From contig JABMCL010000154.1 in the NCBI GenBank assembly GCA_018857735.1, positions 62,001-126,000 on the forward strand: DNA of 64,000 nucleotides. Reading direction: 5' to 3'. The DNA comes from Alviniconcha marisindica (taxonomy: Eukaryota; Mollusca; Gastropoda; Provannidae). Position numbers and translations under genes: made by a program. The notes below the pieces were generated by a model. That model was not told the origin of the DNA and did not search any database. It saw only the letters and a program-made list of their open reading frames with translations. Shown here piece by piece: positions 736-63,585 of the stretch. Position 1 is the first letter of the stretch. Each line of letters starts with the position of its first letter.

Positions 736-1555
736 ATGTGTAAGTTGAGGACCTTGTTGCTAGTGCTTGCGTGCACTGTGTGCCTGACGAAGGCATGGAC
801 GCCGAGGTTTTTTCGCGGTCGTCCCAAAGGAGGTTTGGTACCGCCCCCACCCCGACTCGAGAGCATGCTCGGTAAGCCGGTGTCGCCCGACCTCTGGCTC
901 AGCCAGACCCTCGATCACTTCAACGATGCCGACACGCGCACATTCCGACAGGTGAATGGTCTCAAGCACTTTCTGTTTCTTCTGCTTCATCTGTTTCGAC
1001 CCTTTCTTCCGTGTACAGAACCAGGTTCACAGGGAATGTTGCTGCTTCAACATATGTGGAGTCTTTTGAGTAGGTTGTTTGGGCTTTGGAAGTGATAGCT
1101 GTGTTCAAAGATTTGAAAACTATTAATGGGCTTTGGAAGTGGTAGCTGTGTTCAAAGATTTGTAAACTATTTACAGTATGGCATTTCAGGAGCTGTCTAC
1201 AGTTGTGGGTAAAGCGCACTGTGTATGCAGCTGCTTAGACCGCGCTGTCCAGAATGCTTCCAAGGATGTGGTCATCCAGGGTGGCAGATGATTCCAGTTC
1301 CTAGGGCATACAGGAAGAATGAGCTGAAAAGTACCTGATGAGTTGTCCTCTCTGTGCTGCGCTTGTCCTCCGGTCACCCTTCTGGTAGAACTGGGTTGTT
1401 GCTGATTTTGTACAGTGTTCAGAGTCAGAGAGTTTTTTCTTGTGCTGCACTGTCTGTTTGGAGCAGTCTCCTTTGCAAATTTAGATCATCACACACACTC
1501 ACATCTTTCCAATTGGCTTTGAAATCTCACCCCTTCAATTATCCTATTGCCTGGG

Positions 1556-1588
<33 letters not shown>

Positions 1589-2037
1589 CTGCCACTGTGT
1601 GTGTGCGTATGCATGCATGCATGTGTATGTGTACATGTGCACATACTCACTCAAGTTTATTTTGACTGTTTTGCTTTGTAATGCTCTGCATGCTCCACTT
1701 TGGAGAAATAGCAGAGTGAGATAATATGTAATGCATTATTAAATTAGGTTGTGTAATGTTTCATGTAAAGTGCTTTGACTAGTTTGAGCCTCACTCTTGT
1801 ATAGTCATAGAGATAGAGGGATTTGGTGCATTAGAAATGCATTATTATAATATTAATATTTTTATATTTTGTCTGTGTTCACGTCACTGTTTCCATACTG
1901 TTACTGTGCTGGCCATTCCATTGCTGTGTTGAAATATAAATATATCTAAAAAATAAAATTTGAAATACAAAAAAAAGAAGAAGCAAAAAAACTAAAACAA
2001 AAAGCAACGTGAACAATAACTAACAAAACAAACATAG

Positions 2038-2102
<65 letters not shown>

Positions 2103-2755
2103 TTATACAGTTACATTAGGGATTATAACTTAGAAATCAACATACAACATATATACCACTAGATCATTTTAGTAACTTGCTGAATATTAATTATTATTTG
2201 TTTAGACTGAAAAGAAGTCTGTTGCACTTGCAGTTAGTCACAACTGAAATGATGTTACACTGTTAGTAAGTTAGTTAAAATATGCCTGCAGAGTACAAGT
2301 GAAACTCAGCTTAACTTGTAACTTTCCATTTGTGCAGCGGTACTTTATGAACAACAAGTACTATAAGTCAGGGGGTCCAGTGTTTCTGTCCATCGGTGGC
2401 GAGGGACCAGCCAATCCGGTGTGGATGGAGAATGGAGCATGGATACAGTATGCACAGGAACACAACGCCATGCTGTTTATGGTGGAGCATCGCTACTATG
2501 GCCAAACACACCCCACAAGGTATGGTTCGTGTCTATTGTTAGAGGGTATCCCCCTGTCTGAATAAGTGAAACAGTTGCCAAGTTTGGACTGAGAGTGGCA
2601 GACTTTTTGCATTTCTGTCTGTCTGAAAGACATTGAAATGGCACCAAGATCACCATTTTGATTTCTCCTTGGAAAAGTCCCAATTTTAATTTTTACTGAT
2701 GGAAATTGAAATCCTACCAGATTTTGATTTGTACCCACACAATCTCTCTCTCTCT

Positions 2756-2814
<59 letters not shown>

Positions 2815-5800
2815 GACTGTTTTCAATTTCCCTGTCAATTGGCAACCACATTGTGTCATTGAGTGTTGACCTAGTGTGTGCAGTGTATTTTTGTGTGTCA
2901 AAAGAATGTCTGCAGACATAAAATGGTGTGGCTCACTGGCTGCAAACATTTAAGTTTTTTAACATGCACAAACATGTTGTTAATTAATTATTCATGCAGT
3001 TGCACACCAGATCTGTATAAACACTAGAAGAAAGTCTGCACTGAAGTGAAAGTTGACTCTGAGACTCAGAAAATCCCTTGCCGTACCATGGAGTTGAACC
3101 TGCGTGAGCAGCACGCTGGACCCAACACTCAACCACCTGAGCTGCATCCCCACGCTCCTCAGGCTCATAGTTTTCAAAACTCAGTGGATTTTCAGCGTGC
3201 GCATGTGTGTGTGTTGTGTTTGACTATGTGTGCATAAAACAGAGTGAGAAGCAGAAGGGGGGGGGGGGGGGGGGGGGGAGATTGTTACATTTATTCGTTC
3301 TTTTGGTTTTGTGTAACATTGATCTTTGTAAAGCAATTCCTAACAGTAGGCGCTCAAGAAACCACCCATTATTAAAGTGATTGTTATATAGTGATTGACT
3401 CTTGTTCACCTTTTTGTACACTTTACCTGTTATATAGACATTGACTACTGTTCACCTTTTTGTACATTTTACGTGGCAGTGACATGAGCGTGGAGAACCT
3501 GCAGTACCTGAGCAGCGAGCAGGCGCTGGCTGACCTGGCGCAGTTTATCACCTTTGCTAAGGACAAGTACCAGCTGCCCAACAACAAATGGATTGCCATC
3601 GGAGGATCCTACTCAGGTGTGTCAGTAATAGCCAAACACATGAAAGGTTCAGAAGAACGCTTGTTTATTAGGTCAGAAACAGAGTCTGTAAATTTTCAGG
3701 GTAATCCCCTTTGTCAAGCTACAAAATGACCACAATTCTGTTTTGATTATGCATCTGGATATTGTTTTAGAATGCTAGTAGTTATTCTTGTTTCAGTGAC
3801 TTGTGTCAGTAATAGTAATACATATTTCTGAAATGCAAACTCTTGCATGCACGCACGCACACACACAGACAAATGCACACACACACACACAAATGCACAC
3901 ACACACACACACACTACACTACACTACACTACACTACACACAGTGACACATACGCACATACTCACACACACACATGCACATGCATGGGCACCTTGTGTGT
4001 GAGCACCTAATATCAGCTGAATATATATAATATATATATGTCTGTTGGGTAAACGTATGATGTCTGTCAGGTGAGCACATCATATCAGGTGAATGTATGA
4101 TGTCCGTCAGGTGAGCACATGATATCACGTGACCATATGATCTCTGTCTGGTGAGCACATGAGATCAGGTGAACATATTATGCAAGGCTTTTTTTCTGGT
4201 GTGGTTGACAGGTGCTCTAGCTGGCTGGTTCCGCATGAAGTACCCTCACCTGGTGACTGGTGCCATAGCAACCAGCGCCCCTGTCTTTGCGCAGCTCAAC
4301 TTCCTGGGTAAGTGTCCAGCGGCGCTGAGTTTCTAGAAGTAAGAAATAAAATCTGACGGAGCTTAGCATCAATGACAGGTGAGCTTGCTTTCATCTTCTT
4401 ACAGTTGCTTACAGACCCAATGCACTACTGTTGTTTTTGGACTATAATTACAAAAGCAATGCTTTTTGTCGTCATATTTCTCCACTGTGCCTTATAGTTT
4501 GGTAGTGCCTTATTTGTGAATAAAATTCAGCATGCATGCTTTTCCATAATGAATATTATTTTGAACCCAAAACAAGTTGCCGTATTAGACTAAAACAGAA
4601 ATTGCATAGCTTGGCAAACTAATCAGTGATATTTTCCAGGCAACTGACAGAGGGAGGAGATGATCCCAGAAATGGGATTTGAAACAACTCTAAATATATA
4701 TATATAGATGCTAGTATAGGTTGAGTCACACTGTCAGTGTATTAGAGCATTTTTTTTGAGGGTGGAAGATTACAAAGCCAAAAAACAGAATGTACATTAA
4801 CATCAAGTCCTTCAGATGAGACTATAAACCGAGGTCCCCCGTGTGTGTATATATATGTATGCATGCAAAAAGATCACATACACATGTATGTTAAAGGTCA
4901 TGTAGACCATGTCAGAGTTTGGTGGATTATGGGAAAACCAAAATAACCCAGCATGCACTAAAAGTGTCAGTCTTGAGAATGTTGAAGTTGGACACTATAC
5001 AAAGAAGAAGATCAAATACAATTGAGAGTAAATGGTAGCAGCCCCAGTTTCAACTTCATCTCATAACCAAGTCCCATTAGATCAGAATTTTGGTTAGCCA
5101 GTTATTGTCTGCTAAACTGTCCGTCTTTGGGGAAAAAATGCGGCATTTGCTGTTCCAATTGATTCAGACTCTTTGTGAATGGCAAATTCACAACTTTGGG
5201 GGGGAAGAAGAAGAACAAGGGGAGTGAGAGAGAGAGAGAGTGTGTGTGTGTGTGAGAGAGAGAGAGAGTGGGGGGGGGGGGGGGGGGGCGGAATAACAGT
5301 CAGTGTATTAGTAGTATTACTGCCACTATTATTTTTATCAACTGTATTATTTGATGCATGCTTTTCAGAGTATTTGTCCGTGGTGCATGACTCGCTTGCC
5401 ATGAACAGCCAGTCCTGTGTAGACAACATCAAGATGGCTGTGGTTGAGCTGGAGAAAATGATGAATACAAGCTCTGGGCGAGCAACACTGAAGAGCATGT
5501 TTAAGTAAGTCAGCAAGAGAGAGAGAGAGGATAAAATTCTTTATTTACAAGGGTAATAGAAAGAGAGAGAGGGGGTGTAGGGGGAGGGGGAGAGGAGGGG
5601 GGGGGAGAGTGATGGGGATGGGAAGAAAGAGAGGAGATAAATGGTGTAGGTACGAGAGAGAAAGGGGAGGGGAGAAAGAGAGAGAGGATAGAGAGAGAGA
5701 GGATATTAAATGGTGTAGTAAGAGAGAGAGAGAAAGGGGGAGGGAAGAAAGAGAGAGAGGAGATAAAGTGTGTAGGGAAGAGAGAGAGAAAGGAGAGGGG

Positions 5801-8800
5801 GGGGGGGGGGAGATTGTGGGAGGTGGGGGGGGGGAGATAGAATGTGAGGGAAAGAGGGAGAGGAGAGTGTTGAGAGAGAAGGGGATCAGGGGGGGGGGGG
5901 GGGGGAGATGTGGGTGGCAATATTGAATCATTTATTGGGGGTAGTTTGTGCAGTGTGTTAGTGCGAGAACAGGATTAACACACACACACACCTTTTGATC
6001 ACAATACAGTCTCTGTGATGACATCAACATCACCAACGCAGATGATGTGTCCAACCTGTATGCAGTGCTGGCTGGCAACTTTGAGAATGTGGTTCAGTAC
6101 AACAAAGACAACAGAGCCTTTGAGGTGAGAGAGAGAGAGAGAGAGATGTAATGTGCGGTAAACACCAGTCAGAGTGTGAGTGTGTATGTGTGTGAGAGAG
6201 AGAGAGAGGTAATGCTGCGGTCAGTCAGAGTGTGAGTGTGTGTGTGAGAGAAAGAGAGTGAGATTGACTGATTGATGTTTTATTCATATAAAGGCCATGG
6301 CCCTTCATGAAGGGGTGCACATACAAATATGGTACAGAGCTTTTGCATCTTATAAGTACATAACTGTTAACTACAACCAGTTCATTAGTACAAAGTAGTA
6401 AAAGTATCCCTAATCTTGAAAGCCTTATACAGAAAGGCTTACACATTATCAGCTGTCAGTGTTTGTCATAACAGCAACGTTTTGTTTCCTTTTGTAACTG
6501 CTTTCGATAGAAAGAAAAGAAGAGCAAAATAATACAGCTTGCTGCTGCTTTTACATTTAGTATTTACTCAGCTCTCACTTTCTCTAGAGAAGAAAAAAAA
6601 ATGCATGTGGAAGTGAAATCAGTAAAAGGATGTTGCTAAAGTGAATTCCATAAAACAGTGTGGCTGTTTGATTGTAATGACGGAGAACTGCTTTTAGCTG
6701 TAGCAAACTAGGGCCAGGAAGGAGGACAGTTCAAGCACAGCAAGGCATGGACGCTGCTGTGACTAGTCCTTTTTAGGTTTATTTTGTATCAGTGCTTGCC
6801 AGGAAACTAGCCCTTGAAATTTTGCATAATTTTTATAGACATGTCAAGGTGTAAGAAAATGTGTATGTAGCATTGAAAATTGTTTAAAGTATGCATGAAA
6901 TGTGCATTAAGATCCCTGGTGTGTGTGTGCATGCATGTGTGTGTGTGTGTATGTGTTTGTCTATGTGTATTCGTGTATGTGTTTGTGCATGTGTGCGCGT
7001 GCGCGCGTGTGTGCGTGCGCGTGCATGTGAGCACTTCTTACTCTGACCTCACAGTGAGAAGAAAATGACACTGTGAAGTCGCAGGGTACGTGGGGAAGCC
7101 CTGACTCTGGGGGAAAACCCCACCCAGCTCTTCATCCCGAACCTCTCAGATTGCCCGCAGCCTCACAGGCACGCTACAATGCAGTGGCTAACAGTGTGCA
7201 TGGCTTGCTTGCTTGGCCGGTGTGTGCAGGGGGCTGTGGGCACCAACATCACAATCGCCACGCTGTGCGGAGTGATGGACAAGAACACCAGTCGCTCAGC
7301 CCTGCAGCGCTACGCCGACGTCAACAGCCTGATCCTCCACACCTACAAGGAGAAGTGCCAGGACTTCAGCTACAGGGGCATGGTGGACGACTTGAGGAAG
7401 GTGGACTGGCAGAGCGATGCTGCCGAAGGAGGTGAGTAGTGAAACTGCCAGGGGAGGGGGTGGGGGGTGACATGAGGAAGGTGGACTAGAGGTGAGTAGT
7501 AACAGGGGTGGGGGTGGGGGGTGACATGAGGAAGGTGGACTAGAGGTGAGTAGTGAAACTTGCAGGAGTGGGGGGAGGGTGGGGGGGAAGACGAGGTGGA
7601 TGGCATGAGGAAGGTGGCGACATGAAGAAGGTGGACTGGAAGAGTGGTGCTTCCAAAGGTGGTTAGAAGTAGATCTGGCAAGGATTGGGGGGAAGGGGTG
7701 GGGGGGGGTTTGGGGGGGGAGATGGCGGACAACATGAGGAAGGTGGACTGGAAGAGTGATGCTGGTGAAGGAGGTGAGTAGTGGAACTGGCAGGATTGTC
7801 TGTAGGTTACCTGTACCATTTCTATCGACAGTTGTATTATATATATATTAGTTAAGCCACCAACAGGCCGTCAGCATCAAGATGACTTTTATAGTTACTG
7901 TTGTTATGATTATTGTCTTCTTCTTCGCGATTGCTGCTGGCATTTAAAGTGCATGGTTCTGTGATTTTCTGGAGAGCGCCAGTGGCTCAGTACCTCCGTC
8001 TTCAGCCATCTAGATTTTCTGTTAGCTTTCCTCGCCCTTAGCTCCTGGCCCCTACGTCCTGCCCTGGGAGCACAGGGAGGATGTTTTCCGGGGATCCCAC
8101 CCCGTAGCTAGGGCTTATAGCGGCCCATGTTCACTGATGGTCCCATCAATGGACACCTGAGGCATTTATTTTCGGTGTAGCAGAGCCACCTGCTACCACA
8201 TTCCGTCCTGGCAGGGGCACTGGCAGTTTGGTCCGTGACTACTTATTCGTCCAGTGAGCTGGCTTATTTCGCAGCTAACCCTCAGTATCTGGGGGTCTTC
8301 CCAATATCCGCCACCTGTGGATACGCCTGGTGGGGGGATGGTCGCCCCATCACTCGATTGGAAGTTGACCTGTCCAGGACGATTATTGTTAGCGTTGTTG
8401 TTTTTGATTTTGTCCTTCAGGTCGTCAGTGGACGTATCAGACGTGCACAGAGTTTGGCTACTACCAGACCTCCGACTCCAAGGGACAGCCTTTTGGCTTC
8501 AAGTTTCCCTTGGAATTCTTCATCAAACAGTGCCAGGACATCTACAATCCCAAGTTCAACACTGACCTCATCAGCCGCGGCATCAACCGCACAAACACAA
8601 ATTATGGGGGTTACGGGATCAAGGTCACAAATGTGGTGTTCCCCAATGGCTCGGTGGATCCTTGGCATGCGTTGGGGATAGTGAAGGACCTGAGTCCTGA
8701 TGCCACAGCAATTTTCATAGATGGTGAGTAAATGTTGGATTTTCCTGGCACAGATTTTTCTGTCAGTAGGCTGAATTCCATCTATTGAGGAGCAGCAGGG

Positions 8801-11265
8801 GTCGTTCTTGAGAAGAGAAAATGATACCAAAATGTATTAGAATACTTTCTACACACACAAATGCACACTCTCTCTCTCACTCTCCCATTATAATAATAAT
8901 AATACATAAATTTTCTATAGTGCTATTCCACACTGAGCGAGCTCAACGCGCTTGTTCACATATGTGTACATAATATATACCATTTACATTTACTAACATA
9001 TCATATACAAGCAGTCTCATAATACATACTTAACTCTTTCATCCCTGAAAACTGCTACAGCGGTTGAGAGAATCTTTCCCTTCATTCCTGAGAATTGCTA
9101 GAGCGGGGCAGGCATAAACACTCCCTTCCTTCCGGCCGGCTGCTGCAGCGGTTCTGCCTTTGAAATCCGCACCTACCTGTCGCATGGTCAGCACGTCAGT
9201 TCCCCCTGGCCAGTGTAACGGGACCTGAGGAATGTTTTGATAAGCTGCACAGTGCTTTGATTAGCCGTACCTGGCCACTGCCAGAGTGTGGGAAAGTGTC
9301 CAGTGCACAAAATTTGTCCGTTTCTAGGGATGGGGTTAGGTTATTCTGTACAGTTGGAAAGATGGAGGCGGATGAGTATAACGATAGTGATCAGTTCTCT
9401 GACGATGATGTTTATGACAATCTGGGCGAAAATTATTTTGATCTGTTGGAACTGACAGAAGAGGAGAGAGCAGAGCTTGCAAATGCATTTAATGATGATA
9501 GTGAGAGTGGTGATGAATTGGATGATGAAAACCTGCCTTTTGCCACATTTTGAGTGGACAGGTGGGACACTGCTGTGACACGAGACATACCTCTGATGTC
9601 CAGTGCAGATGTGTACATAGACATAGTAAATATAGTTGTACAGAGTTACGGTGCAAACATTGTGTACATATATGATAGAGATGGCGCATGGATTACACTA
9701 AAATGAAACAATCATACTGTGAACTCATACTTCCTACTCTTGTGCAAACCATCGCCTTTTCATCACCATTTCAAGGACACAGACAATGTGACAAATGGAA
9801 TTTCTGGAGACAGTTTCTGTGTGGATGTTACCTGGGACATCAGACTGTAAGTAGGGAGCATGTTCCATTTCTCTTGGCATGTTCTGTGGGCCTGCAAAAC
9901 CTTGGTTTCATCTGTTTGTCTTAGCAAGGGTATGTGTCACCTTTATTTGCACCTGTGTGTCACCCTCCTGGTGACAGTGACTCTGAAAGTGTGACCATTG
10001 CCTTCTGACTTCATTTACCTACACAGTGATATATAGGTTGCCATGGTTTTACTAAGAGCTTGCAGACACTGATGACTCAAACCCACATACCCTCTTTCAT
10101 ACATTTTTTTCTTATGAAAACCCAGGAGTGACAGGATAGTTATGTATATAGGAACATAGGAATAAGGGGAAGTAATGCCAAATACGAAACAGGGATGAAA
10201 GAGTTAATAAATTACACTAATATAAAACAAGTACTTGTAAAACAGCGCATGAAATAACTGTTATAAAGCATAGAGACGTTACAATAACTTCATATGGTTA
10301 GAGACCATTATAGTAATGTTCACCTGTGCCTCTGTTTTGCAGGGACAGTACCCACCCACTGATCATTAAAGACCTTTATAGTGATGTTCACCTGTACCTT
10401 TGTTTTGCAGGGACTGCAGACGGTTCCAACATGGACCCATGCATTGGTCATTGAAGACCATTATAGTGATGTTCGCCTGTGCCTTTGTTTTGCAGGGACG
10501 GCACACTGTGCCAACATATACCCACCTACTGATCATTAAAGACCTTTATAGTGATGTTCACCTATGCCTTTGTTTTGCAGGGACGGCACACTGTGCCAAC
10601 ATCTACCCACCTACTGATCATTAAAGACCTTTATAGTGATGTTCACCTGTGCCTTTGTTTTGCAGGGACGGCACACTGTGCCAACATGTACGCACCTACT
10701 GATCATTAAAGACCTTTATAGTGATGTTCACCTGTGCCTTTGTTTTGCAGGGATGGCACACTGTGCCAACATCTACCCACCTACTGATCATTAAAGACCT
10801 TTATAGTGATGTTCACCTGTGCCTTTGTTTTGCAGGGACGGCACACTGTGCCAACATCTACCCACCTACTGATCATTAAAGACCTTTATAGTGATGTTCA
10901 CCCGTGCCTCTGTTTTGCAGGGACGTTACTCACCCACTGATCATTAAAGACCTTTATAGTGATGTTCACCTGTACCTTTGTGTTGCAGGGACGGCACACT
11001 GTGCCAACATCTACCCACCTACTGATCATTAAAGACCTTTATAGTGATGTTCACCTGTGCCTTTGCTTTGCAGGGACGGCACACTGTGCCAACATCTACC
11101 CACCTACTGATCATTAAAGACCTTTATAGTGATGTTCACCTGTGCCTTTGTTTTGCAGGGACGGCACACTGTGCCAACATGTACCCACCCACCTCCTCCG
11201 ATCCTGCTGCCTTGGTCAAAGCTCGTGCCTCCATCACCACGCTCATTGGCAAATGGGTGGCCTAG
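736..11265 (+). CDS. PRSS16: S28-family serine protease, PRSS16 / K12H4.7-like, complete, 9 exons
   Basis: Exons: 736-951, 2338-2519, 3480-3616, 4212-4307, 5369-5504, 6010-6124, 7230-7431, 8421-8723, 11159-11265. All junctions are GT..AG and phases join, giving 497 residues. Residues 1-20 look like a signal peptide, so the protein is probably secreted or lysosomal. Peptidase family S28 cleaves after proline or acts as an endopeptidase (lysosomal Pro-X carboxypeptidase, DPP7, thymus-specific PRSS16). The triad is visible: Ser176 in GGSYSG, Asp441 in NGSVDPW, His466 in [25 protein letters not shown] (exons 2-3) is the typical S28 block. The catalytic His sits alone with the C-terminal tail in exon 9, whose acceptor region is tandemly copied ten times upstream. 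PRSS16-like is the closest label; one-to-one orthology with vertebrate PRSS16 is not shown. Intron 8 carries a piggyBac-type insertion. Confidence 0.93.
952..2337. repeat. S28 intron 1 with GT and CA microsatellites
   Basis: No gene is visible. The intron holds a GT run at about 1558-1588 and a nearly pure CA run at about 2039-2098. A 37-bp segment near 1084-1170 is duplicated (TGTGTTCAAAGATTTG occurs twice, about 55 bp apart). Confidence 0.7.
2520..3479. repeat. S28 intron 2: CT/TA microsatellite, poly-G, duplicated acceptor tract
   Basis: A CT run at about 2747-2793 passes into TA repeats to about 2812, and a poly-G tract lies at about 3257-3279. Just before the exon 3 acceptor, a roughly 45-bp segment containing CACCTTTTTGTACA occurs twice (about 3381-3432 and 3433-3479). 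The polypyrimidine tract of this acceptor is therefore tandemly duplicated. Confidence 0.65.
4040..4220 (+). repeat. ~40-bp minisatellite at the S28 exon 4 acceptor
   Basis: Three to four units of about 40 bp carry TGTCAGGTGAGCACAT. They end roughly 40 bp before the true acceptor at 4210-4211, which reads TTGACAG then GTGCTCTAG. The unit resembles that acceptor, suggesting a diverged junction-derived array. A CA run precedes it at about 3848-3950. Confidence 0.5.
4308..5368. other. S28 intron 4, no gene seen
   Basis: Mostly unique AT-rich sequence. Close to exon 5 there is a compound GA, GT and poly-G tract at about 5221-5288. Nothing else is recognisable. Confidence 0.5.
5511..5914 (+). repeat. 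400-bp polypurine tract in S28 intron 5
   Basis: An almost unbroken purine strand of GAGA blocks and G runs (poly-G near 5799-5812, 5826-5834 and 5889-5905) immediately follows the exon 5 donor. Long polypurine tracts of this kind can adopt triplex or G-quadruplex structure. It may also cause assembly error. Confidence 0.75.
6122..6268 (+). repeat. Duplicated donor-side segment after S28 exon 6
   Basis: From the exon 6 donor (GTGAGAGAGAG at 6125) a roughly 60-bp segment recurs two to three times, with GAGA, GTAATG and CAGTCAGAGTGTGAGTGTGT in order. The array starts at the splice site itself. It is partly microsatellite, so junction origin is less certain than elsewhere. Confidence 0.45.
6269..7229. 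other. S28 intron 6 remainder
   Basis: No gene is visible. A GT/GC-rich microsatellite occupies about 6918-7028. The exon 7 acceptor used is the AG at 7228-7229, because it keeps the frame across the junction and restores GAVGTNITI, the conserved S28 continuation. Confidence 0.55.
7388..7785 (+). repeat. Donor-carrying array derived from the 3' end of S28 exon 7
   Basis: The real exon ends with GAGGAAGGTGGACTGG...GAAGGAG and the donor GTGAGTAGTG. About five imperfect copies of this exon end follow in the intron, separated by G-rich spacers. At least three repeat AGGTGAGTAGT as an intact donor. The last copy (about 7734-7780) is nearly a complete duplicate, again ending GAAGGAG|GTGAGTAGTG. 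Confidence 0.8.
7790..8420. other. S28 intron 7 remainder
   Basis: About 7975-8390 is GC-richer than the rest and has the look of an old interspersed element. I cannot assign it to a family. No exon is needed here, since exon 7 phase 1 joins directly to exon 8 at 8421. Confidence 0.4.
8885..9029. repeat. Interspersed repeat fragment interrupted by the piggyBac insertion
   Basis: An AAT-repeat followed by a segment ending in ATAGTGCTATTCC resembles another copy at 63870-63960 and shorter ones near 12000, 12310 and 17860-17930. The sequence appears to resume at 10208, so the piggyBac element seems to have inserted into it. Confidence 0.45.
9030..10207 (+). mobile_element. piggyBac-type DNA transposon, internally deleted, flanked by TTAA
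   Basis: TTAA occurs at 9030-9033 and again at 10204-10207. Between them, 9034-10203 (1170 bp) begins CTCTTTCATCCCTG and ends with its exact reverse complement, CAGGGATGAAAGAG. TTAA target duplication with short terminal inverted repeats is the hallmark of the piggyBac superfamily. The left end also shows three imperfect subterminal repeats (about 9034-9063, 9076-9106, 9121-9151), each with a TGCTRSAGCGG-type core. The element is too short for a full transposase (usually about 550-600 codons), so it is non-autonomous. Confidence 0.82.
9362..9553 (+). pseudogene. Possible N-terminal remnant of a piggyBac transposase
   Basis: The open frame starts at the ATG at 9362 (an in-frame extension reaches 9257) and encodes an acidic 63-residue peptide rich in Asp, Glu and Ser (for example [18 protein letters not shown]) before TGA at 9551. 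Acidic N-termini are usual in piggyBac transposases. No DDD catalytic domain or Cys-rich tail follows within the element, so this is at most a fragment. The assignment rests mainly on its position inside TTAA-flanked inverted repeats. Confidence 0.5.
10296..11187 (+). repeat. 85-bp array of duplicated last-exon acceptors in S28 intron 8
   Basis: Exon-start positions in the array are 10343, 10411, 10496, 10581, 10666, 10751, 10836, 10921, 10989, 11074 and the real one at 11159. Spacing is 85 bp, with two 68-bp units. Every copy has a polypyrimidine stretch and an intact AG (usually TTTTGCAG). Seven of the ten extra copies encode A-H-C-A-N, the catalytic His segment, then Y-x-P-T-D-H and a TAA. 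Copies 1, 2 and 8 lack the His. Joined to exon 8 in phase 1, each could in principle serve as an alternative terminal exon. Confidence 0.93.
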
Positions 11266-11271
11266 TTCTTA

Positions 11272-11555
11272 ATGTGTGTGATAACTGGCCAGGCTACCTG
11301 GCTTGTTTGTGTGTGTGTGAAAACTAGCCATGCCACTGGGCTTGTGTGGGTGTGTGTGAAAACTGGCCAGGTCACCTGGCTTGTTTGTGCGTGTGTGTGT
11401 GAAAACTGGCCAGTTCACCTGGCTTGTTTGTGTGTGTGTGTGAAAACTGGCCAGGTCACTTGTTTTGTGTGGGTGTGAGAACTGGCCAGGTCATCTGGCT
11501 TGTTTGTGTGTATGTGTGTGTGTGTGAAAGCTGGCCAGGTCACCTGGTTTGAGTT
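11272..11555 (+). repeat. ~46-bp minisatellite in the S28 3' UTR
   Basis: About six units centre on AACTGGCCAGGTCACCTGG followed by a GT-rich spacer, starting a few bases after the stop codon at 11263-11265. They probably lie in the 3' UTR. CTGGCCAG and CCAGGTCACCTGG give each unit partial dyad symmetry. Confidence 0.8.
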
Positions 11556-13307
11556 TGTGTGAAATATGGATCACCCTACCTGAAGCCTGGCATTCAGAAG
11601 GTAGTGGCTTCTGTTTGAAAGGATCACCCAGGTCTGTTGGTGAAAAGACTGCCTCCTGCGAGTCTTTTTAAGAAAGCAGCACCTCTTCAAGTGATGTGTG
11701 TACACCAGTCTTCAGACAGAAAAGTGGAGACAATAACTGACAATGTATGTTTCACTACATTCTGCCACTGTCCAAAGAACGTTTGGAGATCAGAGAAGAT
11801 GTACGATCAGAGTGCAAAATGTTTGCAGTGATAGAGAGCGCCTGTCTGCCGGTTCAGAGGTTGGGGAAGAGGTCATGGGGTCTCTCTGTGTTCAGGGTGG
11901 TGTACGGCTATAAAGGGTGTGTGGTGTAATTCTAGCTTCCGTACAAGCACTGCTGTGCGGAAGTGCAGTGAGTTTGTGTAGACCAGAGAATAGCGCTGTA
12001 CAAAAGTTATCTATTAAGTGGTGTGATTCTGGTCTCCAAGCTACTGATATCCAGTGCTATTGCATGGAAGAAGCGCGGTTTGATACAAACATGTAAGTTT
12101 GGATGTTGGAGTGAGGTTCTGATTGAATTGAAAACAGTTCAAAACAACGGACCTGCTGTGGTTTTCATTCCGCGCTGCAAGCTTCCTCTGCCTTGAGTCT
12201 CTGTTTGTTGTGTGTAAATTAAGTTTTGTATAGTGAGTATACTTGTGTGTGTGTGGTGTGCATGCATGTGACTCTGTGTGTGTGTGCACACTTTAGGCTT
12301 AAAATAGTCTCTATGGACAAGATTTTGCGCTTTATAAATACTGTAATTATTATTATTTTATTATTAAAACTGTGGCTGCGTCTCATCCTTTGCCACCCTT
12401 GTCCATGACTCAACAGGCTGCAGTGTAATACAGCTGAGCATACAGTCCACTTCTGAGATCCCTTGCGTAAGATAGCGTGGCTCCAGTTGTTAACCAGTTG
12501 CAGTTTGTGAGACAGCGAGACTGAACAAGGGGCTGATGCTCTTTTCCTTGGTATAATTCCAAGTGTACGTTTTGTAAACTTCTAAACATGTATCTTGGTT
12601 TAAAATCTCAGCTGATCATTTAAGTATGGAGTCTTCCCCTCATAAATTTCCCTTCATGTATGACCCACATGGTTGAAAGGGGTACCACTGGCCTAGCCTT
12701 TACTGCAGCAAATGCCCTGGACCTTTTTGGTCTGCGATCAGGTGTAGCTTGCAGTGGAGCCCTATCAGTCTGGCCTATTAGATGAACAGACAGTTTCAGC
12801 CATGGTTGTCTGACTGCAGCTTGTGGTCGATTTTTGGAATATGCCAAGGAAAGGGGTGTGTGTGTGTGTGCGTGTGCATGTGCACATGCATGCATGTATG
12901 TTTTGTATGTGAGAGCAGGAGAGTCTTACTGTCTTCCTTACAATGAAAGGGTGTCTTCCTGGTAGTGCAAGTGACCTGTTTTTTTACGCCTGTCAACCAG
13001 TCCTGGTAGCAAGTTAATGTCTTCTGTACAATTACAGTGTACAAGTGTTTTCCTTATAGCCCAGCAGTAGTCATATATGTCGTGCAATGACCTTCACACA
13101 TCTCTAGTGGTACTGGTTAGACATAAATAGCCCAAGCTGAAGAAAGCAACACAAACAACAAAACTATACAAGTGTGGGTTACTGATGTATACAGTGGCTT
13201 ACTTGTCTGAACACGGGTGTAGCATAACTGATGTAGACACAAGTGTGTAGATGTAGGCATAGATGGAATTGAATGGGTTGCTGATGCAGAGGGAAGTATG
13301 TGGACAG
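11556..13307. other. S28 3' flank
   Basis: No gene is visible. Repeat-like tails with GCGCTTTATAAATACTG and ATT runs occur near 12310-12365, and GT microsatellites near 12244-12290 and 12857-12890. A motif containing TTTTTTACGCCTGTCAACCA near 12970-13005 resembles better copies at 21119 and 53570. I found no clear canonical poly(A) signal close to the stop; ATTAAA occurs at about 12363. Confidence 0.4.
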
Positions 13308-18949: not shown

Positions 18950-19330
18950 GATTGCTGAGTTGCCCTTCAAGGGGATGAGGGATTTCTGATGCACCAGGAC
19001 AGTGACCGGGATGATGGTGTGGATCTCTGTGGCATTATGACGGTGGCTGGTGCAGAGTTGCAGGGGCAAGATGAGGGTTTTCTGTGGCATCAAAATGATG
19101 AGGGATTTCTGATGCCAGAGCCACGAGAGAGTCTGGCGCAAGGGAATGGGGTTGAGATGGTGACAGTTTTCTGCGGCATCACAGCTGGCAGAGTCTGGCG
19201 CAGGTTTGCGGGGGCAAAAAGGTATGTTTTTTTTGTGGTATCACGGGAGAAATGATGAGGATTATCTACGCAGGCATCACGACAGTGTCTGGCGCAGGGT
19301 GGCAGGGGCGAGAAGCAGGTTGATCTGCTC
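18950..19330 (-). repeat. Diverged copies of the COG3 C-terminal coding end
   Basis: On the minus strand the last COG3 codons, reading [10 protein letters not shown] and stop, are followed by about three to four decayed copies of the same segment. They share CCCCTGC...CTGCGCCAGAC and a TGATGCC tail. Visible blocks lie near 19200-19240, 19100-19145 and 19040-19075. They lie beyond the stop at 19277, so are probably 3' UTR or flank. Confidence 0.6.
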
Positions 19331-54332: not shown

Positions 54333-54400
<68 letters not shown>

Positions 54401-57400
54401 AGGTTTTGAAGTGTGCGTTTGGTTATGAATGAGTTTGTTTGTCCTAAGGTGACCCCGTGTAGTTGACGCCTAATGCTAAAATGCAATTACTAACTAACTT
54501 TGTCCTCAGCAACGGTGTCTGCGCTGGCCAGTCTCACTCACAAAGTACTGCGTCCTGGAACCATGGCGCCTTCCCTTGGAGCTGTCAGTAACTCTTTTTT
54601 CCTTCTGGTTTTGTCAATTGCATGCACTGTATCATCATCACACAGTTGTGCTTATTAGTATATTACGCAGATGATCATTAGTGATTTTGTCTGTGTCCAC
54701 TTTCTTTTTATTGATGCAATGACTAGGCCTGACCTGACAAATGTCTCTCACAGCCCCCTCTATTTGCAATGGGGGGGGGAGGGGGGGGTGGTGGTCCTGT
54801 GGAGGTAGTGTAGTGCTGAAATATCACTACTACTACTACATATAATTGGGGACGGGTGGTTGTGATGGGGGGGAGTGCACATGGAAGGTCACTGCTATAT
54901 GCAGTTTGGATGTTGGGGGTTATAGTGGTCTGAAATATAACCACAGATAATAGCTGGGGGAGGGGGGCTGCTTTGAGCTTGGGGGTGGGGGGGAGGATGG
55001 GGGGAGAGGGGAGACCTGTTGTACATTGTTGTAAAAGTGTTGATTGGTAGTTTTTAAAAAGCTCTCCACTCCATTCCTTCATTACAGTCAGGGGTCATCA
55101 TGTGTCTACTCAGTTTCAGTCAGGCGTCATCGTGTGTCTACTCAGTTCCAGTCAGGTGTCATCATCTGTCTACTCAGTTTCAGTCAGGTGTCATCATCTG
55201 CCTACTCAGTTTCAGTCAGGTGTCATCATGTGTCTACTCAGTTTCAGTCAGGTGTCATCATCTGTCTACTCAGTTTCAGTCAGGTGTCATCATCTGTCTA
55301 CTCAGTTCCAGTCAGGTGTCATCATCTGTCTACTCAGTTTCAGTCAGGTGTCATCATGTGTCTACTCAGTTTCAGTCAGGGGTCATCATGTATCTACTCA
55401 GCTTCAGTCAGGTGTCATCATGTGTCTTCTCAGCTTCAGTCAGGGGTCATCATGTGTCTTCTCAGCTTCAGTCAGGGGTCATCATGTGTCTTCTCAGCTT
55501 CAGTCAGGTGTCTTCTGGGTTTCAGTCAGGTGTCATCATGTGTCTTCTTGGTTTCAGTCAGGTGTCATCATGCGTCTTCTTGGTTTCAGTCAGGTGTCAT
55601 CATGTGTCTTCTTGGTTTCAGTCAGGTGCCATCATGTGTCTACTTGGTGCTGTGTGTGTGACACACCCGGATGCCCGCCTGAGCATTGCTTTTGTGGGAG
55701 AGATCTATCCCCACTCTTTTTCTGCAAGCAGTGTAAGTATACTTGCCCAGAATCTTGGCTGTCCTTAGTACAATGTAAGTCGACACTGTACATGTGGTAC
55801 ATGTTGATGGATGTACAGGCTGTAAATATAGGGTTTATGCACCTGTCCTTAGCAGTGTAATCGGGTTGCAAACACTTTTTATAACTTGTGTACAGCAAAC
55901 GCTGTCTCTTGTAAAACGCGTATACAAAAACATGATGCTACACACACTGAGAGCAATTTATTCAGAACAATCCTGCACTTACCTAGTTGAACAGCTGCCT
56001 CTCGTGCCTACTGCAGAATTCTCTGCGGGCCCGATGGATAACGGCACTAGTCCGAGTTTTCTGTGTTGTCTTTTGCTGCATGGTGCTGAGCTACAAAATG
56101 TGGTCTGTCCTGCATGCAAATGAACAAGGGGAAACTGGTAATGCGACCGGAACTACCACTAACCTCATTCAGCAGCTGTCAAAGTTAATAAGTTTTGACA
56201 GCTGACTTCACACCCTGACGTCAGAGACTGTGTGAGAGAGAGAGACTGCTGAAAGCCTTTAATTAAAACACATTCTGTCATACAGATCTCGACTTTTGTG
56301 TGTGTAGTAACTGCAGGAGGTATGAGCATTTGTGTGAGAGGGGTTTGTTTTGCATTAAAAACATGGCTTTATCTGCACGTTTGTGACTCCGGTGAAAGTA
56401 GACACTGTGCATGTTGATGTATGTATGGGCCCTACTTGTAGGTGTGTAGGTGTTATAGATAGTGTTTATGCATCTGTCCAATGTAAGGAGGCACTACATG
56501 TCTGTTCCTTCTCCAGCACATGCAGATAGTCTTCATGCATCTGTCATGTTAACCTGTTGTGCAGGCCCTCATGTTCATACTGTGAACATATTGTGTGAGT
56601 CCTTGGGTTCAGTGTTAGCACCTTGTGTGGGCCCTCTGGTTCATACTATTAACATTTTTGTGCAAGCCTTCAAGTTTATACTGTCAGCATGTTGTGCAGG
56701 CCTTAAAGGTTATACTGTTATCTTGTGAATGACCTCAAGGTCACACAGCTAACACATGCATGCCCTCAAGGTCACACTGTTAACAGTCTACACATGCCCT
56801 CAAGGTTGCATTGTTAACATGTTGCACAAGCCCTCAAGGTCACACTGTTAACAAGTTGTGCAGGCCCTCAAGGTCACAATGTTAACATGTTGCGTAGGCC
56901 CTCAAGGTCACACTGTTAACATGTTGCACAGGCCTTCAAGGTCACAGTTAACATGTTGTGCAGGACCTCAAGGTCACATTGTTAACATGTTGTGCAGGCC
57001 CTGAAGTTCATACTGCTGCTGGACACAGCAGGACTGGTGCTTGGCTGGAGAGTCTTTGACCACGCCGCTCACCTTGGGGGGGTGCTCTTCGGCATGTAAG
57101 TCACCATTCCTACTCCTTGCCCAAGGGTATAATTATGGGGGAGGGGTGGGTGGGTTGCTTGAGAGCCAGTTTGGCCTAGTGGTAAGGCGTTGGGCTGATA
57201 AGCGGAAGGACATCGGTTCGAATCCGCTTCGGCTCTCCTTTCTCTTCAGATGTTGTAGTCTGTGGACAGTCTTGTGACTTTGTCCCTCACAATTAATGAA
57301 ACATTAAAATGGCTCTCATCACTGCCCATCTTAATGCAGGAGTCATTCTGGTGGTGACAGTGTAGCGATAGGTATATAATCTACCTCTTCCCCCACCTCC

Positions 57401-57920
57401 ACCCCCCTCCCCATCCCTAATAAGCCTTATGGTTTCTGTGGACGTTAAGCACCATGTTTACTTATGTGGGTTGCTCTTCAGCATGAAGTGGGATGGGGGG
57501 AGGGAGTGGGGGGACTACTGTGCATACAAGTCTGAACAGGTTGATCATGGGGGGGGGGGGGGGGGTCTTTTATATGTACATCTGTGCCACTTACCTTGAG
57601 GAGGGGTTGGTGCTCTTGGCATGCAAATCTGACCCCACTGCACACCTTGGGGGCTGTTTGTTTTGACCAGGTCACTGGGGGTTTCTGCTCTTTGGCATAT
57701 AAATCTGACCATGCATTTCACTCACTGGGGTTGAGTAGGGTGCTCTTTGTTTGTGGTCATTGTCAAACAATTGTTCTTTCCTCTTGTGCACTTTGAAGAG
57801 TTTTTACTTGTTGGCTTGTCCCGCAGTTGGTACGCAACCTACGGACACAAAATTGTGTGGGGCCAGCGAGAGCATGTGATGCGCTGGTGGCACAGCATCA
57901 GAGGCAAGCCCAGCGACTGA
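49237..57920 (+). CDS. PARL: PARL, mitochondrial rhomboid protease, complete, 9 exons
   Basis: Exons: 49237-49301, 50256-50517, 51807-51953, 52402-52540, 53690-53839, 54510-54583, 55622-55732, 56998-57095, 57827-57920. 1140 nt, 379 residues, the same length as human PARL; phases join. PARL is an inner-membrane intramembrane protease that processes PINK1 and PGAM5. The N-terminal part is Ser/Arg-rich, fitting a mitochondrial presequence. SHFNLWHIAANMYVLWSFAS (exon 5) holds the rhomboid HxxxN region. The catalytic Ser280 lies in GA|SG split between exons 6 and 7, and His338 is in FDHAAHLGG (exon 8). Exon 6 uses donor GTCAGT, weaker than the others. Exons 7 and 8 are flanked by junction-derived arrays. 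The start at 49237 is the first ATG in frame. Confidence 0.95.
49302..50255. repeat. PARL intron 1 with GT microsatellite
   Basis: A pure GT run lies at about 50012-50067 and a TA-rich segment just before it. No gene is seen; the open frame running from exon 1 to 49596 is an intron read-through. Confidence 0.6.
50518..51806. repeat. PARL intron 2 with GT microsatellite
   Basis: A GT run lies at about 50602-50656. CGTCCTGAGGTGACCCTATG with GCAGTTGGCAGGATGCTGA (about 51424-51468) resembles GTCCTAAGGTGACCCCGTGT near 54440, an interspersed element not otherwise identified. Confidence 0.55.
52541..53689. repeat. PARL intron 4: 390-bp CA/CAACA microsatellite
   Basis: About 52676-53062 is almost entirely CA repeats, with CAACA pentamers at 52907-52999. 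GA repeats lie at 53520-53572. The motif GTTTTACGCCCAGTCAAC at about 53588 repeats that at 21134. Apparent long open frames here are repeat artefacts. Confidence 0.85.
53840..54509. repeat. PARL intron 5 with CT/TA microsatellite
   Basis: A CT run (about 54338-54369) passes into TA (about 54370-54398), the same compound structure as in S28 intron 2. AAT repeats lie at about 53993-54010. No gene is seen. Confidence 0.6.
54584..55087. repeat. PARL intron 6, G-rich part
   Basis: Several G runs (54769-54792, 54866-54873, 54957-55010) alternate with a diverged ~100-bp repeat. The array of exon 7 acceptors follows directly. Confidence 0.5.
55088..55644 (+). repeat. 32-bp array of duplicated PARL exon 7 acceptors
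   Basis: Seventeen units precede the real exon. Each reads TCAGGTGTCATCATGTGTCT, ACTCAGTTTCAG, matching the real exon start TCAGGTGCCATCATGTGTCT plus its TTTCAG acceptor. Starts are 55088, then every 32 bp to 55504, 55526 (after one 22-bp unit), 55558, 55590, and the true exon at 55622. Every unit has an AG acceptor and the TCA-GG(T/G/C) codons of the catalytic SG. The whole 534 bp is free of stops in the exon 7 frame. Confidence 0.93.
55733..56544. other. PARL intron 7, first part
   Basis: No gene is recognised. TGTACATGTTGATGGATGTA-like phrases near 55795-55830 recur near 56405-56440, again followed by a GGGTTTATGCACCTGTC-like phrase. This is a dispersed duplication of about 60 bp. Confidence 0.45.
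56545..57020 (+). repeat. 34-bp array of duplicated PARL exon 8 acceptors
   Basis: About thirteen units precede the true exon. The exon starts TTGTGCAG|GCCCTGAAGTTCATACTG; units read GTTGTGCAG|GCCCTCAAGGTCACACTG then TTAACAT. The most upstream copy (CAG at about 56564) is GCCCTCATGTTCATACTG. Many keep the AG; a few read CAT or CAA instead. Confidence 0.88.
57161..57240 (+). mobile_element. tRNA-like SINE head (PARL intron 8)
   Basis: A 77-nt segment has a perfect 7-bp acceptor-like stem (GAGAGCC with GGCTCTC), an A box GCCTAGTGGTAAGGC and a B box GGTTCGAATCC. The spacing before the D arm is about four bases too long and the anticodon stem does not pair, so it is a tRNA-derived repeat rather than a tRNA gene. 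The downstream body differs from the SINE at 39417. Confidence 0.6.
57464..57765 (+). repeat. Diverged copies of the PARL exon 8 3' end
   Basis: The exon ends CTCACCTTGGGGGGGTGCTC, TTCGGCAT then GTAAGTCACC. Intron 8 holds about five decayed versions: GTTGCTCTTCAGCATGAAGT, CTTGAGGAGGGGTTGGTGCT plus CTTGGCATGCAAATCTGACC, ACACCTTGGGGGCTG, CACTGGGGGTTTCTGCTCTT plus TGGCATATAAATC, and CTCACTGGGG. Donor GT is lost in most. Confidence 0.65.
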
Positions 57921-60474: not shown

Positions 60475-60480
60475 AATAAA
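60475..60480 (+). promoter_or_regulatory. Candidate PARL distal poly(A) signal
   Basis: AATAAA is followed 15-25 bases later by GGTGTCCGTTG, a reasonable GU-rich element. Use would give a 3' UTR of about 2.6 kb. Confidence 0.4.
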
Positions 60481-60752
60481 AATCTGTGAGAAATGGTGTC
60501 CGTTGATTTCCTTCTCAGTATGAACTCTCAACAGTTTGTGGTCAAAAGTATGACAAAATAAACAATGGCCGAACACAGGTTTGACTGAGACATTCACAGA
60601 GAGACAAGAAGAGCCCCTCACACACTTTCCATCCCCTTAAATTGGTAAACAAACACACACACACACTCAATCTGTGAAACCTAACAAAAGTTAGTGAAGT
60701 GTGAGCTCCAGACACAAAAACGCAAGCTTCCTGAATTTTATCATCCTGCAGT

Positions 60753-60758
60753 TTTATT
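60753..60758 (-). promoter_or_regulatory. Candidate WDR36 poly(A) signal
   Basis: TTTATT on plus is AATAAA on minus, about 745 bp past the WDR36 stop at 61503. It is the first canonical hexamer I see on that strand. Confidence 0.4.
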
Positions 60759-61502
60759 ACTCGCAGAAATAGCTCATGGTCCGTTACACACACACACGTG
60801 TGCTCACACTGACAAACTCATTCACGCAGGCAAACTCGCACTCTCCGGCAAAAGCACACACAGGCAAACTTACACAGGTAAACTCACACCCTCTGATCAC
60901 TTGCACACAAACTCTCAAATCCTGATGCAACACGTAGCATGAACACACACTTCCACTCCTAACACAAAATGTTTCAGGTAAGCCAAGAGCACCACATGCA
61001 TTCAAGACATCCACCTGTACTGGCTTAGCAGACCCAGACATCCACATATCCCCATTTGGACATTTTACATAAAATCCTAGACCACTGAAGACGGATTTCT
61101 GCAAACTGCCTTACCCCCCACCCCCCTCCCCCCCCCAAACCTGATAATCCTTTTTTCCTTATGCAATGAACATGCTGTTGCTGCATGGATGTGTGTCCAC
61201 ACTCTACAACTGTACAAGTCTTCATCGTCACCATCATCACATGACAAGACTGTTGGAAGGCTAAGGAATTTTACTGGTCTAGGAACAAAACCGATACACA
61301 TGGGAATTTTCCTTCTGACAGCAAATAAAAAATAGTGATAACACTTTGTAAAAGAGTAAGATTTTTGTTCTTTCTCTCTCTCTAAACATATATGCTTCAT
61401 AAAATAGTTGTGGAAGACCTTTTGGGGGTTTGCAGAGGTCTAAAAAATGCACGGATGGACCTAGGGTGCGGTTTTGAGAGTAGATCTGGACGCCTCACCC
61501 AG

Positions 61503-63585
61503 CTATCCCAGTTTAGCAGAGCACATGTATTTGCCCAGACAGAGTGACTGTTTCATGTCGTCGTCGAGCTGACTGGCAGCCTGGCTCTGAAGAGACAGGA
61601 TATCCTCCATCTTCTCCACCACCTCCAGGCTGTTCTGCAGCTCATCGTGATGAATCTGCACACAGACAACACGCCTGATGCCTCATCTCAAGCTACATCT
61701 GCACACAGACAACAAGCCTGATGCCTCATCTCAAGCTACATCTGCACACAGGCAACATACCTGATGCCTCATCTCAAGCTACATCTGCACACAGGCAACA
61801 CACCTGATGCCTCATCTCAAGCTACATCTGCACACAGACAACACGCCTGATGCCTCATCTCAAGCTACATCTGCACACAGACAACAAGCCTGATGCCTCA
61901 TCTCAAGCTACATCTGCACACAGGCAACATACCTGATGCCTCATCTCAAGCTACATCTGCACACAGGCAACACCCCTGATGCCTCATCTCAAGCTACATC
62001 TGCACACAGGCAACACCCTGATGCCTCATCTCAAGCTACATCTGCACACAGGCAATGCATACTTGATGCCTCATCTCAAGCTACATCTGCACACAGGCAA
62101 CATCCTGATGCCTCATCTCAAGCTACATCTGCACACAGGCAACACCCCTGATGCCTCATCTCAAGCTACATCTGCACACAGGCAACATACTTGATGCCTC
62201 ATCTCAAGCTACATCTGCACACAGGCAGCATGCCTGATGCCTCATCTCAAGCTACATCTGCACACAGGCAACATACTTGATGCCTCATCTCAAGCTACAT
62301 CTGCACACAGGCAGCATGCCTTATGCCTCATCTCAAGCTACATCTGCACACAGGCAACATGCCTGATGCCTCATCTCAAGCTACATCTGCACACAGATCC
62401 AGTGATAGCTCACTTTAATGAAAAGTCCAGTCATAGATATATCTCACCTTGATAAAGAGTCCAATGATAGCTCACCTTGATGAAGAGTGCAGAGATAGCT
62501 CACCTTGATGAAGAGTCCAGCAACAGCTCACCTTGGTGGAGTCCAGCGATAGCTCACCTTGATGAAGAGTCCAGCAATAGCTCACCTTGATGAAGAGTCC
62601 AGTGATAGCTCACCTTGATGAAGAGCCCAGCGATAGCTCACCTTGGTGAAGAGTCCAGCGATAGCTCACCTTGATGAAGAGCCCAGCATTAGCTCACCTT
62701 GATGAAGAGTCCAGCAATAGCTCATGAAGAGTCCAGTGATAGCTCACCGTGATGAAAAGCCCAGTGACAGATCACCTTGATGAAGAGTCCAGTGATGCTC
62801 ACCTTGATGAAGAACCCAGCGACAGCTCACCTTGATGAAGAACCCAGCAATAGCTCACCTTGATAAAAAGCCCAGTGTAGCCCTGTATCAGGTCAAAGTC
62901 ACGGTTGGTCTGCAAGGTGTTGAGGACGAAGTCGCAGAAGGCCACCATCTCTTCCTCCCCCTGCAGACTCTGGATGTCTGCATCAATGCCAAACGCCCCC
63001 AGTCCCTTCAGCCTCGTGAGAACAGGAGCATCTGAAAGTGGAGTCCACAAACCTCCTCATGCAGTGGTGTAACCAGCGCATGTTCACATTCCACTCCCTG
63101 CATGCTTAGAACTAATTCTGTCTGCAAAGAGACTGCATGCTTGAAATCAGAAGGGAGAGTCAACTTTGTGGTCTTCATTCTTGCACCAGGGGAATAAGTA
63201 AAGTGTCTTTCTGCTTAATAAGTTAAAAGAATAAAATAAAAGGAAAGTATTATTATTATTTACACACCCACCTGTGCCATGTTCTGACACAGTTTTACTG
63301 TGTTATTTGCTTTTTAATCAGGATTTTTTTTTTTTAAATCCTGTTTCAATAAACAAAGAGTATAGAGATATTCCTGAATGGTATAAAAGTCACAAACTAT
63401 GCAAGAAAGACATCCACACACACGCACGCACACACACAGACACAAGCCTAAATACACTCTGATTTGGAAAGTGCCTGGCAGAGAAGAAGCGACTCACAGT
63501 GGCCAGTGTTTGATGCCTTCAGCAACAGCTGGGCAAACTCTGAAGGAGCATGCAAGTCTGGTTTGGTCAGGATGCGCGACTGGGG
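61503..63585 (-). CDS. WDR36: WDR36 / UTP21, last three coding exons (5' part outside window)
   Basis: Exons: 63585-63498, 63031-62859, 61655-61503 (stop TAG). The 137 C-terminal residues are seen and phases join; the upstream exons lie beyond 64000. The sequence matches the Utp21 C-terminal domain that follows the double WD40 propeller: ILTKPDLHAPSEFAQLLL, GAFGIDADIQSL, RDFDLIQGYTGLFIK, and a final helical segment with VEKMEDILSLQSQAASQLDD. WDR36/Utp21 is a UTP-B subunit of the small-subunit processome, acting in 18S pre-rRNA processing in the nucleolus. Both junctions of the last intron are tandemly copied (see the two arrays). It is convergent with PARL. Confidence 0.9.
61640..62400 (-). 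repeat. 43-bp array of duplicated WDR36 last-exon acceptors
   Basis: About seventeen units. On the sense strand each ends GTTGYCTGTGTGCAG followed by ATGTAGCTTGAGATGAGGC. The true acceptor is TTGTCTGTGTGCAG followed by ATTCATCACGATGAGCTGC. The splice acceptor is copied exactly. The exon part is only partly similar (GATGAG conserved). Confidence 0.85.
62436..62872 (-). repeat. 28-bp array of duplicated WDR36 donors
   Basis: About fifteen units. The sense unit is TGGGCTCTTCATCAAG|GTGAGCTATCGC. The real exon end is TGGGCTTTTTATCAAG|GTGAGCTATTGC at 62859. Exon end and donor are repeated down the intron, most with intact GTGAGC. A donor shift by one unit adds 28 nt and changes frame. Confidence 0.92.

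Follow-up and report, generated by a model that had tools for sequence, protein, structure and literature searches.

Tandem arrays at exon-intron boundaries of four neighboring genes in the gastropod Alviniconcha marisindica resemble the mirage minisatellites of amphioxus

Tandem repeats that extend across intron-exon boundaries have been described in amphioxus, where they were found in Adh3 and named mirages; further cases are the globin genes BflGb6 and BflGb9, TnC, and PGBD5 (PMC3087553, PMC3902484). Their units range from 10 to 72 bp in Adh3 up to 150 to 160 bp in the globin genes (PMC3087553, PMC3902484). Reverse transcription-PCR shows regular splicing to be undisturbed by mirages (PMC3087553), and normal splicing is reported or suggested for the further cases (PMC3087553, PMC3902484). 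The Rogers model, as outlined in PMC3087553, invokes the same kind of event for intron gain, namely, tandem duplication of an AG/GT proto-splice site. Here we describe arrays built from exon-intron boundaries in a 64,000-nucleotide stretch of the genome of the gastropod Alviniconcha marisindica (contig JABMCL010000154.1, positions 62,001 to 126,000; hereafter the window). The window carries four genes with 74 splice junctions in total: S28 (9 exons), COG3 (20 exons), PARL (9 exons), and the last 3 exons of WDR36.

Copying of individual junctions exceeds chance in the window. Each junction (±60 nucleotides [nt]), anchored on the boundary, was compared by alignment with up to 1500 bp of its own intron after masking of microsatellites, and the background, obtained from 296 draws of junctions against introns at least 3 kb distant within the window, reached a top score of 16. 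An own-intron copy scoring at least 20 was found at 14 of the 74 junctions and one scoring at least 17 at 18 of 74. Because copies were sought in introns only, the exon-proximal position of the genuine site is partly a matter of construction. At 8 of the 74 junctions, at least 10 net matches lie on the exon side and on the intron side both; here the repeat units contain the exon end, the splice site, and the adjoining intron, which is the makeup of a mirage. These eight are the donor of exon 7 and the acceptor of exon 9 in S28, the exon 3 donor and both ends of exon 11 in COG3, the acceptors of exons 7 and 8 in PARL, and the donor of the penultimate exon in WDR36. The set is balanced (4 donors and 4 acceptors), and junction arrays are present at 5' and 3' intron boundaries alike, again as expected of mirages. 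Plain copies can be aligned at all eight and also at the other end of the last WDR36 intron. In five cases the exon part of the best copy is short (4 to 5 net matches), i.e., at the last-exon acceptor of WDR36, the exon 8 donor and exon 13 acceptor of COG3, and the exon 3 acceptor and exon 6 donor of S28. The exon 8 acceptor of COG3, which the original prediction had not listed, is a weak extra case scoring at least 20. The junction-associated arrays are as follows, copied splice sites being called decoys.

10349..11192, + strand: S28 exon 9 acceptor array, 85-bp unit, score 90; 10 decoy copies with intact AG lie upstream of the genuine acceptor (11158/11159)
7432..7795, + strand: S28 exon 7 donor, degenerate 54-bp array, score 56 (TRF part, 7449-7575); the last ~35-39 nt of the exon are copied with the donor at 7773
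3382..3479, + strand: S28 exon 3 acceptor, two 46-bp units, score 36, exon part 4, one degenerate copy
6125..6260, + strand: S28 exon 6 donor, GA-rich low-complexity repeat of ~60 bp that begins at the donor, score 33, exon part 4
46753..47475, - strand: COG3 exon 3 donor array, ~110-bp unit with ACAG/GTAAGACA, score 23
42612..42827, - strand: COG3 exon 8 donor-abutting array of intron-start sequence, score 47, exon part 5; GT retained in 0/6 among the copies listed
38176..38861, - strand: COG3 exon 11 donor array, score 101; the 64-bp unit takes in the end of the exon and the donor, and there are 9-10 decoys
38929..39053, - strand: COG3 exon 11 acceptor, two 64-bp units, score 55
36733..37384, - strand: COG3 intron 12 array, score 22; the 35-bp unit is related to the exon 13 acceptor in degenerate form
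55085..55644, + strand: PARL exon 7 acceptor array, score 79; ~23 nt of the 32-bp unit are exonic, and there are 16-17 decoys
56547..57015, + strand: PARL exon 8 acceptor array, 34-bp unit, score 58; AG retained in 6/10 copies
57470..57720, + strand: PARL exon 8 donor, score 17; copies at 57484, 57622, 57670, and 57698, all decayed, so that this looks like a decayed array
62398..62875, - strand: WDR36 penultimate-exon donor array, score 61, 14-15 decoy donors in 28-bp units; GT lost in the copy at 62722
61654..62396, - strand: WDR36 last-exon acceptor array, score 54, exon part 4; 16-17 decoys in 43-bp units that hold almost no exon sequence

The original prediction counted about 15 junction-anchored arrays. 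Thirteen of the 15 score at least 20 and the PARL exon 8 donor survives as decayed copies, but the S28 exon 4 acceptor has no junction copy in its own intron, a 40-bp array ending 29 bp before that junction. The unit lengths given there (28, 32, 34, 43, 64, 85, and 110 bp) were all recovered by Tandem Repeats Finder (TRF), and differing units in four genes, at donors and acceptors alike, bear out its view of independent origins with a common logic. The two ends of COG3 exon 11 (38176-39053) both have 64-bp units, yet their sequences differ. Across the PARL exon 7 array (55044-55860), all three forward frames are open (open reading frames of 205, 269, and 236 amino acids), and retained units would encode a tandem peptide.

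TRF reported 133 rows, which, after those with a period of 6 or less had been set aside as microsatellites and 22 more low-complexity or short-period rows had been removed, were clustered into 38 minisatellites, 33 of them intronic. With low-complexity rows set aside, no minisatellite among the TRF arrays lies wholly within exons. Enrichment at junctions was judged by three nulls (raw array density, position, and array), which differ in strength. For the array-based null, the unit of each array was placed randomly in the collapsed introns; arrays were labeled by hand from the junction scores as strict (8) or loose (11), hits at this level exclude the COG3 exon 13 acceptor and two non-TRF cases (PARL exon 8 donor and S28 exon 6 donor), and the unit of the COG3 exon 11 donor array was set at 64 bp in the final test (226 bp in an earlier version). 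Under the strict label, 8 of 33 intronic arrays span a junction versus 1.98 (any intron) or 2.91 (own intron) expected (P = 0.0004 and 0.003, respectively), and under the loose label 11 of 33 do so versus 2.73 or 4.06 (P = 3e-5 and 4e-4), an array-level excess of 2.7- to 4-fold. The strict P value stays at or below 0.04 after any single gene is left out. The 22 nonspanning arrays are evenly distributed in introns (Kolmogorov-Smirnov [KS] P = 0.49), which speaks against a general attraction of arrays to junctions.

The position-based control records how often a copy is found on one side only of 6647 nonexonic positions, with a loose definition (score of 20, both halves at least 4) and a strict one (both halves at least 10). 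By the loose definition, 14 of 74 junctions compare with 5.6 to 6.5 expected in four intronic or all-nonexonic controls (P = 0.001 to 0.005), 8.9 in COG3 intron 16 alone (P = 0.055), and 4.2 in intergenic sequence (P = 0.00006). By the strict definition, intergenic positions predict 2.0 (P = 0.0008). None of the P values is corrected for the number of definitions tried or for the choice of the stretch for its pattern, and positions, as well as copies within an array, are nonindependent. A moderate excess of arrays at junctions is therefore likely, though unproved from one hand-picked window.

Most, but not all, decoys keep their splice dinucleotides, as do mirages. Counted in copies passing a 68% match, the decoy GT or AG is intact in 10/10, 9/9, 16/16, 14/14, and 17/17 copies of five arrays; overall, all are intact in six arrays and 6/10 in the PARL exon 8 acceptor array. 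In six arrays, conservation of the copied GT/AG does not exceed that of the other dinucleotide phases of the unit (combined P = 0.76), and for this reason the decoys look neutral. A simpler column test of splice-dinucleotide conservation (P = 0.053) was discounted because it is biased to the centers of its windows. When 76 decoys at nine junctions were spliced in silico, 70 led to a premature stop; the six that leave the frame open are all in the PARL exon 7 array. Judged from these predicted frames, decoys could not be the main sites, and the spliceosome would mostly have to ignore them. When sites were scored with a crude weight matrix, 31 of the 74 intact decoys matched or exceeded the genuine site. 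Such decoys make up 6/10 at the S28 exon 9 acceptor, 8/9 at the COG3 exon 11 donor, and 10/14 at the penultimate-exon donor of WDR36, where they all lie within about 450 bases.

We interpret these arrays as mirage-type minisatellites, that is, as neutral duplications across the edges of constrained sequence that are tolerated through exon definition, and we put the probability of this interpretation at roughly 0.7. A local tandem duplication whose unit by chance spans an exon-intron edge would be followed by expansion into the intron. Such duplications would arise wherever tandem duplication occurs in this repeat-rich genome; those inside exons would be purged, and those across an edge would survive. 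Exon definition would favor the sites nearest to each other across the exon, and extra sites on the intron side would mostly be ignored. In PMC9225289, splice sites closest across the exon are indeed preferred when the flanking introns are large. The consequence would be lengthened introns. The exon-side copy, held by selection, may in addition serve as a seed protected from loss. This would account for the moderate excess at edges, including that of one stop codon, where no splicing takes place.

Two arrays lie at the ends of coding sequences.

18970..19300, - strand: COG3 stop-codon edge, scores 30, 26, and 25; the last codons and the stop region recur in decayed form beyond the end of the coding sequence
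11266..11561, + strand: array downstream of S28, 39-bp unit, score 39, coding part 4; it starts directly behind the stop codon

The copying of the COG3 terminal codons, noticed in the original prediction, is thus confirmed in decayed form; at S28, the coding sequence is hardly copied. Among coding ends, 0 of 3 starts are copied, and of 4 stops one is a clear case and one has an abutting array, the WDR36 stop edge having been set 3 nt before its stop codon. These few cases point to a general involvement of the edges of constrained sequence, the constrained copy being a seed kept by selection. As to intron length, the anchored arrays (the 11 of the loose label) account for 4850 of the 45364 intron bases (10.7%). 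The last intron of WDR36 is built from its own two ends: its own donor and acceptor arrays cover 1202 of its 1203 bp. A broader proposal is that in this snail lineage tandem duplication is seeded time and again at edges of constrained sequence, above all at splice junctions but also at a stop codon, and that junction-anchored arrays are a main route of intron lengthening; we offer it tentatively and consider it somewhat less probable than its negation. If it were true, it would provide a general and measurable mechanism of intron growth, with replacement of a whole intron by ~17 donor and 17 acceptor copies as its extreme, and a naturally occurring test of spliceosomal choice between nearly identical sites.

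Several results weigh against this interpretation or parts of it. (i) By the strict position test, 8 of 74 junctions compare with 4.1 to 5.5 expected in the same four controls, which is not significant (P = 0.055 to 0.18), and COG3 intron 16 alone predicts 8.0 (P = 0.55). (ii) TRF arrays occupy 20% of the window as a whole and 27% of the intron length, and junctions strictly inside arrays number 7 of 74, versus about 15 expected from raw array density. As a null, raw density is of the wrong kind, because an array that took in an exon would disrupt it, but it is the comparison named in the original prediction. (iii) Decoys as strong as the genuine site are few at the acceptors of PARL exon 7 (2/16), PARL exon 8 (2/6), and the last exon of WDR36 (3/17) and at the COG3 exon 3 donor (0/2). 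Because most decoys of these four arrays are weaker, site strength may do part of the work that we ascribe to position. (iv) In PMC9225289, the stronger site dominates 86% of events, and when two sites are almost equally strong, the upstream 5' site prevails in only 60% of all competitions. On these figures decoys should cost something, and differences in strength or other help (e.g., exon enhancers) must add to exon-proximal choice. (v) No gradient of copy age away from the junction, such as a seed model might lead one to expect, was found, the signs being mixed. (vi) Clear duplication of a stop edge was seen at 1 of 7 coding ends, with no separate background for its scores.

Of the alternatives, pure survivorship fares best. 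It shares with our interpretation the identity with mirages and the exon-definition step and denies the excess and the seed: arrays would be uniform in nonexonic sequence, those touching exons would merely be tolerated, and the pattern would lie in the reader's eye in an array-rich window. The strict position test against intronic positions and the raw array density agree with this explanation, as does the fact that the stretch was chosen because the pattern was seen. Nonetheless, both the array-level test, including its leave-one-gene-out version, and the loose position test show an excess, and we regard survivorship without excess as unlikely, if still a serious contender. The original prediction had named survivorship among its possible causes. 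It fits the absence of minisatellites lying wholly in exons and the exon-proximal place of the genuine copy. On its own, however, it can account for no more than the rate seen in the interior of introns; any true excess would call for something further, such as a constrained seed copy protected from loss. The enrichment check that the prediction called for, run here within the window, gave a positive answer at the array level (P = 0.0004 to 0.003) and a negative one against raw density (7 versus ~15).

Tandem duplication might instead be actively promoted at transcribed splice junctions, e.g., by R-loops, nucleosome edges, or spliceosome-linked breaks, a cause also suggested in the original prediction. 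The 2.7- to 4-fold excess of arrays and its confinement to spanning rather than nearby arrays (KS test above) speak for promotion. On the other hand, donors and acceptors are affected equally (4 and 4 in the strong set) despite their different sequences and binding factors, and the strict position control shows no significant excess over intronic positions. The stop edge of COG3 is duplicated too, in the absence of a splice site, and therefore promotion linked to splicing is not needed. We consider it improbable. Selection for redundant splice sites that buffer splicing or give useful isoforms is a far poorer candidate still. Although decoy dinucleotides are all intact in the well-matching copies of five arrays and the PARL exon 7 array has six frame-open decoys, the AG is lost in 4/10 copies at the PARL exon 8 acceptor, and one WDR36 donor copy and the COG3 exon 8 donor copies listed lack the GT. 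The benefit from redundancy envisaged in the original prediction is not favored, because GT/AG conservation does not exceed that of the other unit dinucleotides (P = 0.76) and 70 of 76 decoys give premature stops. Finally, duplication of repeats by the assembler can practically be dismissed, since the copies differ by distinct substitutions and include truncated units, and single copies match the array consensus at 0.66 to 1.00 in the seven anchored arrays examined. Overall, the observation made in the original prediction holds in large part, and its interpretation, in which the amphioxus precedent went unmentioned, is partly supported.

The gene models were obtained with a spliced protein-to-genome aligner and gastropod homologues, GT-AG intron ends being imposed by the aligner.

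736-11265, + strand: S28 (peptidase S28), 9 exons, spliced alignment
49031-19277, - strand: COG3, 20 exons, spliced alignment
49237-57920, + strand: PARL, 9 exons, spliced alignment
last three exons, - strand: WDR36 C terminus, human C terminus and Pfam Utp21 match

The S28, COG3, and PARL models each have a single terminal stop and an otherwise open reading frame, and Pfam supports S28 (Peptidase_S28) and WDR36 (Utp21). The WDR36 exon models were guided by the human C-terminal sequence and that Utp21 match. In COG3, spurious splits of exons 13 and 14 and wrong joins by exon 16, which came from single-homologue alignments, were settled by hand. In keeping with a caenogastropod, COG3 (draft query) shares 84% of its residues with Littorina saxatilis, 83% with Babylonia areolata, and 81% with Batillaria; the identities are 78 to 81% with Babylonia and Nucella for S28 and 74% with Littorina for PARL (query with some guessed residues). 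In the modeled genes, introns measure at least 310 bp and exons 62 to 303 nt. COG3 and PARL are arranged head to head, with start codons 205 bp apart (48867-49301), and adjoining gene numbers in Batillaria and Nucella, together with a grouping in Littorina, suggest that the COG3-PARL-S28 neighborhood is perhaps conserved.

COG3 intron 16 (22028-33057) measures 11030 bp, the second-longest intron in the window being 2435 bp, and holds nine minisatellites. The unit of one of these arrays (22183-23043) has a strong donor-like core on the sense strand, GGCAG/GTGAGAATT, and might stem from an unannotated exon. Among the arrays away from junctions, donor scores above 5 occur in 3 of 21 on the sense strand and in none on the antisense strand; in 15 of 21 the sense strand has the higher of the two best donor scores (Wilcoxon P = 0.03), which is a hint only, and acceptor-like motifs in these arrays show no strand bias (10/21). 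Two stretches of COG3 intron 10 (39599-40350) have translations that look like those of dispersed tRNA-derived short interspersed element (SINE) copies. In PARL intron 8 (57165-57234), a tRNA match of 30.5 bits versus an Rfam gathering score of 29 is perhaps a SINE as well, and an acidic open frame in S28 intron 8 (9362-9553, + strand), with no Pfam match, may be a nested gene or chance.

These findings extend amphioxus-type mirages to a mollusc at high density (8 to 14 of 74 junctions and 10.7% of intron length), with dozens of decoy splice sites adjoining real ones across four neighboring genes. The arrays, above all the WDR36 donors, are natural experiments on splice-site choice, and they raise the testable question of whether introns grow by duplication of their own ends, exon definition permitting. 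No report of such arrays in a mollusc is among the literature matches listed, most subscription papers being outside their coverage, and the phenomenon is not reported in the accessible parts of PMC9210306 and PMC3862624. The snail arrays and amphioxus mirages are alike in that a tandem duplication crosses the boundary on the donor or the acceptor side and many, but not all, copies keep the AG or GT. They differ in that the host is a mollusc rather than a cephalochordate, four genes within one 64-kb stretch are involved, one intron consists wholly of its two junction arrays, and a stop-codon edge is affected too. The Rogers model likewise rests on tandem duplication over splice-competent sequence; its outcome is a new intron, whereas the snail arrays lengthen existing ones. 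A human minisatellite, that of IFI6 (6-16/G1P3), is reported in the title of a 1995 paper (Nucleic Acids Res 1995;23:1854, cited in PMC2572611) to supply several donor sites to the transcript. This repeat resembles the snail donor arrays in repeating a splice donor. It differs in that it is a single human locus with a 12-bp unit. The structure is thus already known in kind, whereas its occurrence in this phylum, its density, an intron made up entirely of such arrays, and the duplicated edge at a stop codon look new.

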